A stretch of 63,027 bases of DNA, taken from SAR202 cluster bacterium. Lineage in GTDB: Bacteria > Chloroflexota > Dehalococcoidia > Lucifugimonadales > GCA-2712585. Below the pieces are notes generated by a model. The model saw nothing but the letters and a program-made list of their open reading frames with translations, did no database searches and was not told the DNA's origin. The first letter of the stretch is position 1, and every line of letters begins with the position of its first letter. Positions 25,128-29,425 of the stretch are shown here, piece by piece. Made by a program: the position numbers and the translations under genes. The stretch spans positions 1-63,027 of the forward strand of contig VGZZ01000011.1 of the NCBI GenBank assembly GCA_016872285.1. The letters are read 5' to 3'.

Positions 25128-26513
25128 CTAATCCTCTGGCGCGGGACGGATGGGCAGGCGGAGGCTAGGGTGGCGTTGGAGGAGGCGCTGCCATACGCGG
25201 CGGCCAATCTTGTCCGCCTCGGCGATGATGGAAGCCTCGTCCACGTGCAGCATTTTGCCGTCGCGCAGCACCCACTGGCCGTCCACCATGACCGACTCGA
25301 TATCGCTGGGCTGGCCGTTGTTGATAAAACTGGAGACGATGCGTATAGCCGGAACCAGGTTGGAGCGCTGCACGTTGACGATGAATAAATCCGCCTTCTT
25401 GCCCGGTTCCAGGCTGCCGATTTCTTTTTCCATGCTGATGGCGCGAGCGCTGCCCATAGTAGTGTCGTACAAGACATCTTCTGGCTGAGGGTTGGCGGCG
25501 TCCTGGCGGAGGATACGCTCGGTGAACATGCCGGTGCGCATAACCTCCACCATGTCCTGGGTATTGTTGTCGGTGCCCATGCCAATGACCGCGCCGGCGG
25601 CGCGAAGGGCAGGGATGGGCGGTATAACGGCGCGTCGGGCGGCCATGGCAGGCTGGTGGGAGACGTTGGAGCGGGTGGCGCCCATCAGGGCGACCTCAGA
25701 GGGGTCTAGGTAGCGGACGTGGGCTGCGACGAGGCCCGGACCTAGATAATCGTTGTGGTGGAGGGTGTGGGCGGGGCGGACGCCGCGCATCTGCAGCAGC
25801 GATTCGACCTCTATCTGCGACTGGGAGAGGTGGATGGTGTACTTGGCGTTGTACTTCTCGGCCAGGGCGCGGGCATCACGCAGCAGCTTTGGCGATGTTG
25901 TTTCCACCAGGCCGGTGGAGACCATGCAGGCCAGGCGGCCGCTGGCCTGGCCGTGCCACTTCTCGAAGAGCCTGCCCGCGCGTTCTATGTCTCCAACGCG
26001 CTGTTTATCCGAGTAATCTAAGACCGGCTCGCCGGGGCGATAGCCCTGAGGGACGACGCCATCGGCGGTGTTCTCGGCCAATGCCCATCGCAGGCCCGTC
26101 TTGGCTAAATCGGAGGCATAGCGGTGGATGCCTTTGGCGATTTCGACGGTGGTGGTGCAGCCGGTGCGGGCGCATTCGATGGCGCTGAGGAGGGCCATGA
26201 CGGTAGTCTCGTCGTCGGTGATCATATCGCGGGGGTCTTCGGGCAGGCGGAAGCTGGAGGGGAAGCCGAAGTCCTCGGTAACGCCGCGGAAGAGGTTGGC
26301 GGTAAGGTGGGCGTGGCAGTTAATGAGGCCGGGAAACACAGCCTTGCCCCGCCCGTCGACAACCTGCGCCTGGGGATAGCGGGCCGCGAGGTCTTTGGAC
26401 GGGCCAAGGGCGGCTATACGGCCGCCGTCGATGGCGATGGCCGCGCCGTAAAGAACGTCACGGGCAGGATTGCCCGTGACAATGGTGGCGTTTTTGATAA
26501 GTGTGGCAGGCAT
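25128..26513 (-). CDS. amidohydrolase of the cytosine deaminase/chlorohydrolase (TrzN/SsnA/MtaD-like) type
   Basis: A 461-residue metal-dependent hydrolase. An N-terminal beta-sandwich (IKNATIVTG) precedes the barrel metal motif NCHAHL (H67, H69). Downstream are a histidine-containing VAAHVRYLDP strand and the TDNNTQDMVEVMRTG segment, then the C-terminal GSLEPGKKADLFIV typical of the family. The first codon ATG at 26513 overlaps the preceding stop as TGATG, so translation is probably coupled to the upstream protease gene. An in-frame TTG at 26516 is less likely. Substrates in this family are deaminated or dechlorinated heterocycles; none can be named here. Confidence 0.86.
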   Translation of the reverse strand: MPATLIKNATIVTGNPARDVLYGAAIAIDGGRIAALGPSKDLAARYPQAQVVDGRGKAVFPGLINCHAHLTANLFRGVTEDFGFPSSFRLPEDPRDMITDDETTVMALLSAIECARTGCTTTVEIAKGIHRYASDLAKTGLRWALAENTADGVVPQGYRPGEPVLDYSDKQRVGDIERAGRLFEKWHGQASGRLACMVSTGLVETTSPKLLRDARALAEKYNAKYTIHLSQSQIEVESLLQMRGVRPAHTLHHNDYLGPGLVAAHVRYLDPSEVALMGATRSNVSHQPAMAARRAVIPPIPALRAAGAVIGMGTDNNTQDMVEVMRTGMFTERILRQDAANPQPEDVLYDTTMGSARAISMEKEIGSLEPGKKADLFIVNVQRSNLVPAIRIVSSFINNGQPSDIESVMVDGQWVLRDGKMLHVDEASIIAEADKIGRRVWQRLLQRHPSLRLPIRPAPED

Positions 26514-27595
26514 CAACTACTTATAGTCTCCCCCGCCCTGAGGCGGTCCAGGTAGAGTTTAATGGTATTGGAGGAAATAGCAAAGCCCACGCCTTCCACG
26601 TTGATGTCGACCAGCTTGGAGCTGACTACTCCGACTACCTGGCCCTGGAGGTTCATCAAGGGGCCGCCGCTGTTGCCCGGGTTGATGGCGGAGTCTGTCT
26701 GTATCCAGATTACGTTCCTGCCCTTGTCCCACTTGATAGCGGAGACCAGCCCCCTGGTGACCGCTATATCCTGGGCCCTGAGGGGGAACCCCAGGACCAG
26801 GACGTCGGAGGCCAGGGGCGTGGTGCTCAGCTCACCCATCTCCAGCCACGGGAGGTCCGGCGCGTCGATTTTCACGACGGCGAGGTCGTGGACCAGGTCG
26901 CGCCCAATCAACCGGGCGGCGTGGGTAGTCCCGTTGTCGAGATGGACTGTAATAGTCGCCGCGCCGGTGATGACGTGGTTGTTGGTCAGGATATGGCCGC
27001 CGGCGTCGAAGATGAAGCCGGAGCCAGCGGCGTCCTCGGTCTCGATTCGCACCACCGCGCTGCGGGCCTTGGCGGTGATGTCACGCAAAGGCTTGGAGCC
27101 GGGAATGATGCTGCTTTCAATGATTATGGAGGACTCGCTTACTGAAATGCCCTGCTTGCGCGGCGCCCATCGAGGCATGACATCCCTGGTGGAGGTGCTG
27201 ACCACCTGCCTCACGTTGGAGCCGTCCGCGTTCATCACAAAGATTTGTGTCCTGGCGCCGTCCCGCCGGTCGCTGGAAAAGACGATTTGCTTGCCGTCAG
27301 GGGACCAGTCCCCGCTGCTATCCGCGAATTCGTTATTGGTGAGGGGAACGGCGCCGCTGCCGTGGATGTCCATCACAAAGAGGTCCCAATCGCCGTCGCG
27401 GTCGGAAGAAAAGAGAATTCGTTGGCCGTCAGGGGACCAGCTTGGGGTGTAGTCCGCGCCGGGGCTGGATGTCAGCCTTTGAAGGCCGGCGCCGTCGGCG
27501 TTGATAACGTAAATGTCCCAGTTGCCGTCCGGCGTCATGGCGGCGAAAGTAAGCCTGTCGCTGTCAGGGGACCATGAGGGCATGGCCTCGGACAC
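26513..27595 (-). CDS. PD40 propeller blades plus HtrA-type trypsin-like protease (downstream half of a split gene)
   Basis: A 360-residue frame that is the in-frame continuation of the gene at 27605-29425 beyond a single TAA. Residues 1 to about 125 are PD40/TolB-like blades (PSWSPDSDRL, PSWSPDGQRI, GDWSPDGKQI). From about 165 it is an S1C protease with the triad H207 (NNHVI), D237 (HDLAVVKI) and S309 (GNSGGPL). No PDZ domain follows; the protein ends soon after the protease fold. A GTG at 27595 could restart translation but has no good ribosome site and would produce a protein without a signal peptide. It is therefore more likely part of one secreted fusion protein. Confidence 0.82.
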   Translation of the reverse strand: MSEAMPSWSPDSDRLTFAAMTPDGNWDIYVINADGAGLQRLTSSPGADYTPSWSPDGQRILFSSDRDGDWDLFVMDIHGSGAVPLTNNEFADSSGDWSPDGKQIVFSSDRRDGARTQIFVMNADGSNVRQVVSTSTRDVMPRWAPRKQGISVSESSIIIESSIIPGSKPLRDITAKARSAVVRIETEDAAGSGFIFDAGGHILTNNHVITGAATITVHLDNGTTHAARLIGRDLVHDLAVVKIDAPDLPWLEMGELSTTPLASDVLVLGFPLRAQDIAVTRGLVSAIKWDKGRNVIWIQTDSAINPGNSGGPLMNLQGQVVGVVSSKLVDINVEGVGFAISSNTIKLYLDRLRAGETISS

Positions 27596-27604
27596 GCCGA
27601 GGGT

Positions 27605-29425
27605 TTAGGTGAGCCGCCGCGAGTTATTGCCGTCCATGTCCGCGATGTACAGCTCCAAGTCGCCGTCGCCGACACCCATGTAGGCCACCTTCTTGCCGTC
27701 CGGCGACCAGGCGGCGAAGGCGTTCTGGGCGGAGGGGAGGAGGACGAAGGGCCAGGTGCCGTCGTCGTTAATGATGACGGTGTTGCAGGAAGGGGCGCAT
27801 CCGGAATAGATGAGCCTGCGGCCATCGGGCGACCAGGTTAACATAAGGTATGAGTCCGAAATGGTGGCGATGTTCCGCTTGTTGGCGCCGTCCACGCTGA
27901 CAACAGTAAGCTCATCCCGCGTGCCGTTGATCGCGGTGAAGGCGACCCTGTCAGGCTCCACGGTGACGGAAGCTGCGGCGGAGCTGGTGACCTGGCCCTG
28001 GGTGGCGACGGCCTTTACGGTCTTTTTGAATACGCCGGGCGAGTAGCCGGAGGTAAACATGCCGTCGTCTGTGATCGACCCGCCGCCAGATTCTACGCTC
28101 CATTGAACATTTAGGCCGGAGATACGGTTGCTATACTGGTCTATGCCCACGGCTACGAACCGCTGGCTCATGCCGACGCCAAGGTCTATGTCGGCAGGGC
28201 CGACGAAGACCCGCTCCAGGGCTGCCGGCTGGACGATGACATCGATCAGAACGGTCTCGGCGCGGTCTCCCTGTGTTGCTGTCACCTCTATGGCCTTGGA
28301 GAACCGCATAGCGACTTTGGAGGCTATGAACCGGCCGTCGCTGCCCATGACTCCGGCGTCCGGGTCCTTGAGGACCCAGGAGAAGGGAACGTCGCCAATC
28401 CTGTTATCGTGGCGGTCCACGGCGTAGACCTGGATGGGCATGGACGCGCCGGCAACAATGGTAAGGGGTGAGGCGACGGCGATACGTTTCATGGGGCCAG
28501 GCAGGATGGAGACGTCGAAGGTTTTTTCGATGGACTGCTGGCCCAGGTCGGCCCTGACCTTGATGGCGGAGGGGAAGTCGCCGGCTTTGGCGCCGGTGGT
28601 CAACCTGCCCTGGGGGGTAACGGATCCAATCTCTGAGGTGGAGGTCCAGGAGAAGCTGCCGCCGGGCGTGGGGTTGCCGAAGGCGTCCTCTAAACGCGCG
28701 GTGAAATTATATCCGGCCTCGACGTTCAGCTTCGTCGGAGGCGGGCTGACGGCTATCCTGGCGGGGGCGCCGTGTTCCAGCACAACGTCGAAGGTCGCTT
28801 TCGCGGTCTTGTCGCCCTGAAAGGCCTCCACGCTGACGGCGGCGGGGTATCGGCCCGCTTTGGTGGTGGCGTCGAGGCGACCGCTTTGCGAGATGGCGCC
28901 TACGTCAGGGGAGGCCGAGAACTTGTAAATAAGCCCCGGGATGGGGTTGTCGAACTGGTCCAGCCCGCGGGCCTCCACCTTGAGGGCGCCGCCGACCTGG
29001 GCGGCCAGCTCTCGCCGGTACCCGTCGACAGCCACCCTGGCCAGCGGCCCCGGCTCGACGACGATGGCTATGGATGCCTCCACCTCTGACGAATCGCTCT
29101 TCTTAGCAGAGGCGACACTTACTTGGTAGGTCCCCGTACGGGTGTACTGGTGGGTGACGCTTTTAATGGAGGGGTTGGTAGCGGCGAACTGACCATCGCC
29201 AAAGTCCCAATTCGCCTCGCCCACGCCGTTGAAGGAGTGGGTAAAGGTGACGGTAAAGGGGGCCTTGCCCCTGGAGGCGCTGGCTTTCAGGCTTGAGCTG
29301 CTCTGATTTGAACATCCTGAGAGAACCAGGATGACGACGAGGGTAAGTGAGAAAAGGACGGATGATGTGAAAGTGTTTTGCCTGGACGGGATGGAAGGCC
29401 CTATATCCGCTAATAAGTTGATCAC
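27605..29425 (-). CDS. lipoprotein with PKD and Ig-like (Big-type) domains and PD40 blades (upstream half of a split gene)
   Basis: 606 residues. A hydrophobic segment ends in the lipobox LVLSGCS. A PKD domain follows (about 50-135; NWDFGDGQF), then four to five Ig-like repeats of about 90-100 residues, each introduced by a phrase like GPLARVAV, GAPARIAV, GPMKRIAV or AALERVFV. The last 100 residues are PD40 propeller blades (LTWSPDGRRLIYSG, AAWSPDGKKVAYMG). The frame stops at TAA (27607-27605) in the middle of a blade (NNSRRLT) and reopens at once in the same frame with TLGVSEAMPSWSPD. The propeller is thus cut in two. Nonsense mutation, programmed read-through or sequencing error are all possible. 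Confidence 0.82.
   Translation of the reverse strand: MINLLADIGPSIPSRQNTFTSSVLFSLTLVVILVLSGCSNQSSSSLKASASRGKAPFTVTFTHSFNGVGEANWDFGDGQFAATNPSIKSVTHQYTRTGTYQVSVASAKKSDSSEVEASIAIVVEPGPLARVAVDGYRRELAAQVGGALKVEARGLDQFDNPIPGLIYKFSASPDVGAISQSGRLDATTKAGRYPAAVSVEAFQGDKTAKATFDVVLEHGAPARIAVSPPPTKLNVEAGYNFTARLEDAFGNPTPGGSFSWTSTSEIGSVTPQGRLTTGAKAGDFPSAIKVRADLGQQSIEKTFDVSILPGPMKRIAVASPLTIVAGASMPIQVYAVDRHDNRIGDVPFSWVLKDPDAGVMGSDGRFIASKVAMRFSKAIEVTATQGDRAETVLIDVIVQPAALERVFVGPADIDLGVGMSQRFVAVGIDQYSNRISGLNVQWSVESGGGSITDDGMFTSGYSPGVFKKTVKAVATQGQVTSSAAASVTVEPDRVAFTAINGTRDELTVVSVDGANKRNIATISDSYLMLTWSPDGRRLIYSGCAPSCNTVIINDDGTWPFVLLPSAQNAFAAWSPDGKKVAYMGVGDGDLELYIADMDGNNSRRLT

Follow-up and report, generated by a model that had tools for sequence, protein, structure and literature searches.

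A single in-frame stop codon, probably a recent nonsense mutation, in a stalk-propeller-protease gene of a SAR202 cluster bacterium

Introduction

The closest described relatives of the protein considered here come from two separate systems: TolB of the Tol-Pal system, whose propeller is built from PD40 repeats, and the HtrA/Deg proteases of family S1C, such as HhoA, DegP and DegQ. An architecture in which a PKD/Ig-like stalk is followed by a TolB-type propeller and a PDZ-less HtrA-type protease was not found in any published description, which is weak evidence given the partial coverage of the literature. The intact family therefore seems to be undescribed, and it could represent a surface protease of uncultured Chloroflexota. 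Two further precedents concern stop codons within bacterial genes. Recent pseudogenes and nonsense alleles are interrupted by a single in-frame stop. In other bacterial genes, dN/dS has been used to argue for an apparent read-through of such stops, and the conserved stops concerned are orthologous across species (PMC7918605).

Here we analyse a gene of this architecture that is interrupted by one in-frame TAA in a SAR202 cluster bacterium of the Chloroflexota (assembly GCA_016872285.1). It lies within a stretch of 63,027 nucleotides of contig VGZZ01000011.1, which is referred to below as the window.

One reading frame with one internal stop

The gene is a minus-strand frame of 971 codons, a count that includes both the internal TAA and the terminal TGA, with 606 sense codons before the TAA and 363 after it (Table 1). 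A preliminary description had presented it as a single frame from 29425 to 26513 broken only by the TAA at 27607-27605, and these coordinates prove exact, with no other internal stop. The open frame beyond the TAA is not a chance occurrence, since 363 stop-free codons would arise with a probability of only about 1e-5 at the local base composition, strong Pfam matches are found on both sides of the TAA (PKD and PD40 before it, PD40 and Trypsin_2 after it), GC3 is similar in the two parts (0.79 before vs 0.80 after), and homologues align across the site without interruption. Pfam and the intact homologues also bear out the earlier view of one gene with PKD/Ig-like, PD40 and HtrA-type protease domains.

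Table 1. Coordinates of the interrupted gene, its parts and its downstream neighbour (positions in the window)
Feature	Position	Strand	Basis or remark
Whole interrupted gene	26513..29425	(-)	GTG start 29425; internal TAA 27607-27605; terminal TGA 26515-26513; homologues
N-terminal lipoprotein signal, lipobox LSGC at end (Cys 38)	29312..29425	(-)	Read from sequence
PKD domain	29060..29290	(-)	Pfam PKD_4, E 8e-10
About four Ig-like repeats, starts near 29053, 28774, 28501 and 28228	27953..29053	(-)	Repeat starts; homologous repeats in relatives
TolB-type PD40 propeller before the TAA: N-terminal strands and blades 1-2	27608..27952	(-)	PD40; AlphaFold model of intact homologue; TolB matches
In-frame TAA, loop between propeller blades 2 and 3	27605..27607	(-)	Relatives have Asn/Asp/Glu, one gap
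Propeller blades 3-6 and linker, after the TAA	27067..27604	(-)	PD40 E 4e-34, three stretches; blade motifs
HtrA-like (S1C) trypsin-fold protease, PDZ-less	26516..27067	(-)	Trypsin_2 E 1e-31; nearest solved relatives HhoA, HtrA, DegP
Next gene, amidohydrolase-like	25128..26514	(-)	ATG overlaps terminal TGA of protease gene (ATGA, 26513-26516)

The ancestral product would have been a surface-anchored lipoprotein, in which a lipid-anchored PKD/Ig-like stalk carries the propeller and then the HtrA-like serine protease. The Ig-like region gives a single weak match to Big_1 in Pfam, under the cut-off of that family. The TolB-type propeller contains six W-[SA]-P motifs, corresponding to six PD40 blades, and presumably serves for binding. 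The catalytic triad of the protease is present (His 26977-26975, Asp 26887-26885 and Ser 26671-26669, minus strand), with 30 residues between His and Asp. Pfam finds no PDZ domain and the protein terminates soon after the protease domain, as expected from the earlier characterization of the protease as PDZ-less.

To place the TAA in the fold, an AlphaFold model was built on the propeller and protease of an intact homologue, L034. Its pLDDT is above 90 across most of the propeller but the protease is modelled poorly owing to a thin alignment, and the model was used for the propeller only. The TAA maps to residue 134 of the model, within the loop that connects strands 116-123 and 138-144, so that two blades are predicted to precede it and four to follow. 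The stop had been described as lying exactly inside a propeller blade; it does lie within the propeller, but both the alignment and the model put it in the loop that joins blade 2 to blade 3 rather than in a blade core. Because of this position, neither product would close the propeller: translation would end after blade 2, giving a secreted stalk with an unclosable propeller fragment and without the protease.

Intact homologues and a private stop

Eight full-length homologues were identified in other Chloroflexota genomes (L034, G006, G207, G213, G212, G166, G124 and G265), and all are single open frames through the TAA site. L034, on a public contig of a groundwater Chloroflexi genome (JACPRR010000272.1), encodes the whole protein in one frame of 969 codons. 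In G006, which belongs to the same family as the source genome, the gene is split over two contigs, but their ends overlap by an exact 141 nt, the kind of overlap that assemblers leave, and the joined frame is open. A profile built from the source gene, L034 and G006 was then used to search 250 genomes of the order and recovered five further full-length copies (G207, G213, G212, G166 and G124), none of which has the stop. One more copy, G265, came from 393 sampled genomes of the class, where the other match, in G294, represents the L034 protein again. At the column of the stop, seven homologues have Asn, Asn, Asp, Asp, Glu, Glu and Asp, and G265 has a short gap; TAA occurs in none of the eight. 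Since all eight are uninterrupted and none carries the TAA, the gene is, as judged from these sequences, one by descent, and the TAA is private to the source genome. Homologues always encoded as two separate proteins would have spoken against the preliminary description; instead, these eight relatives encode the protein in a single frame.

The fusion itself had been called unusual. It is indeed uncommon, but not unique, as the full architecture is found in seven of the 250 genomes of the order (source genome counted) and in two copies from the wider class. Thus, the combination of PKD/Ig stalk, propeller and protease is rare yet recurrent.

Split gene, read-through or recoding

One alternative is that the gene now gives two functional proteins, with translation of the second reinitiating downstream of the TAA. 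Possible start codons are close at hand, with a GTG and an ATG lying 12 and 24 nt, respectively, past the first base of the TAA, but no Shine-Dalgarno-like sequence precedes any of the three nearest starts, a signal peptide is missing from the second part, and the interruption is predicted to leave two incomplete propeller pieces. In addition, a homologue with the protease encoded as two genes was not found among the 250 genomes of the order or in the 393-genome class sample; all homologues with a protease are one frame, and two genes by design can be rejected. Splitting is therefore very improbable. With neither a signal peptide nor a ribosome-binding site near its first starts, the part after the TAA is unlikely to be produced at a useful level.

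Another alternative, hinted at in the preliminary description, is that some ribosomes pass the TAA, so that a short lipoprotein with the Ig stalk would be accompanied by a small amount of the full-length protease form. The part after the TAA looks fully constrained, with the triad kept, and there is the bacterial precedent cited above. However, the stops conserved in that precedent are orthologous between species (PMC7918605), and programmed read-through would be recognized by conservation of the stop across species together with constraint on the sequence beyond it, whereas the TAA here is absent from all eight homologues. Moreover, TAA is an ordinary stop in this organism, terminating 58 of 202 long ORFs in 463 kb sampled of the source genome, which also rules out a genome-wide reassignment of TAA, and similar nonsense stops are present at other sites of this genome. 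The hint thus finds no support, and we regard read-through as no more probable than a split gene. A particular form of it, in which the TAA is real and tolerated and read-through gives a frequent protease-less stalk and a rare protease form, is less probable still; if true, a tolerated TAA would be a way to dose a potentially self-harming surface protease.

Recoding of the selenocysteine type was considered as well. The tRNA-Sec and SelB are both detected in the source genome over their cut-offs, but this machinery decodes UGA, not UAA, and selenocysteine-type recoding of the TAA was rejected. Three other genes of the genome have UGA at cysteine positions: a DUF3179 gene (L193:3788 (+), UxxC), a CMD/AhpD-like gene (L193:4869 (+), CxxU) and an AhpC/TSA-like gene (L200:9002 (-), UxxC). 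Given the tRNA-Sec and SelB, all three are probable selenoproteins, and both DUF3179 and AhpD-like proteins figure among the listed families of selenoproteins (PMC9312934).

Constraint after the stop

Downstream of the TAA, the gene shows neither a second stop nor a frameshift. The protease region of the source gene is 62% identical to that of G006, and its branch (0.23) is the shortest in the family except for the near-identical sisters G212 and G213. The propeller branch of the source gene measures 0.89 before and 1.05 after the TAA, a comparison based on a short segment and a weakly supported tree. With the triad intact, no added lesion and a short protease branch, relaxed selection after the TAA is not seen, which makes an old pseudogene less likely and leaves a recent one unaffected. 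Since the tree is weakly supported, the branch lengths argue only against long decay, and the missing decay suits a recent mutation and a consensus error equally.

The two sister sequences themselves deviate in the triad. In G213 (L179:6344-9448 (-)) the Asp is replaced by Asn, and in G212 (L180:5857-8979 (+)) the His is replaced by Tyr in addition to Asp by Asn. In these two, the protease domain may have turned into a binding domain.

Recent nonsense allele or consensus error

The main and close rival to a recent mutation is that the TAA arose as an error of consensus or assembly, or as a strain variant taken up into the consensus, in a metagenome-assembled genome, and that living cells of the population carry an intact gene. 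The source genome consists of 83 contigs (95.6% completeness, 3.1% contamination), the gene is otherwise wholly intact, and other lone nonsense stops are present in the genome, all of which would fit such an error. On the other hand, signs of poor base quality are lacking, the gene having no frameshift or ambiguous base and lying away from contig ends, and short-read assemblies with good coverage rarely contain substitution errors. No publication on errors in assembled genomes was found in the literature covered. This reading is a real possibility, although we hold it to be less likely than a mutation.

The other lone stops emerged when 863 kb of the source genome (800 kb in stretches plus the window) were scanned by codon usage. 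Two genes for SBP_bac_5 solute-binding proteins are interrupted by nonsense stops, a TGA at L144:15600 (+) and a TAG at L202:2497 (-); each gives one continuous SBP_bac_5 match on read-through, the protein family continues past the stop, and both stops probably stand at a tryptophan position. Together with the TAA at 27607-27605, at least three nonsense stops thus occur in the 863-kb sample among the rows examined, a lower bound, as the rows of the scan are mostly antisense frames or neighbouring genes. The two interrupted SBP_bac_5 genes indicate that lone nonsense codons are a background feature of this genome.

On balance, the TAA is probably a recent, private nonsense codon in an ancestrally single gene, i.e. 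a loss-of-function allele caught early. We infer from the assembled sequence that the TAA is present in living cells and of recent origin; the role proposed for the protein in the cell, a surface protease on a stalk, is likewise deduced from its domains. For annotators, the two predicted proteins are then one broken gene, which is of little importance by itself.

The mutation could also reach beyond the gene. The ATGA overlap makes it possible that the downstream amidohydrolase-like gene is translationally coupled to the protease gene, in which case the premature TAA could lower amidohydrolase expression as well, via lost coupling or polarity. A conserved operon of the two genes was considered and rejected, as the pairing is not kept in the relatives, whose gene neighbours differ from one to another.

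Comparison with known systems

Within the order, the nearest counterparts are protease-less PKD/Ig and PD40 proteins (e.g. G127, G125, G128, G122 and G258), which have the same stalk-propeller order (model positions 34-771) but end after a complete propeller, with no protease match. In G258, the protein naturally stops at the linker. The TAA was therefore also considered as the natural end of such a relative and rejected, because G258 ends past a complete propeller whereas the TAA here follows blade 2.

The propeller shares its fold and motifs with that of TolB, its nearest solved structure by sequence (phmmer E 5e-29; TolB proteins are also the best Foldseek hits of the L034 model, E ~1e-19). 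In contrast to TolB, whose N-terminal domain is unmatched here, the propeller is placed between an Ig stalk and a protease. Similarly, the protease domain and its H-D-S triad are held in common with HtrA/Deg proteases, but unlike them the protease here has no PDZ domain and follows a PKD/Ig stalk and a propeller within one fusion protein. As for the interruption, the gene resembles other nonsense-interrupted bacterial genes in its single in-frame stop, preserved frame and intact orthologues, and, judged from the assembled sequence, no difference from them was found.
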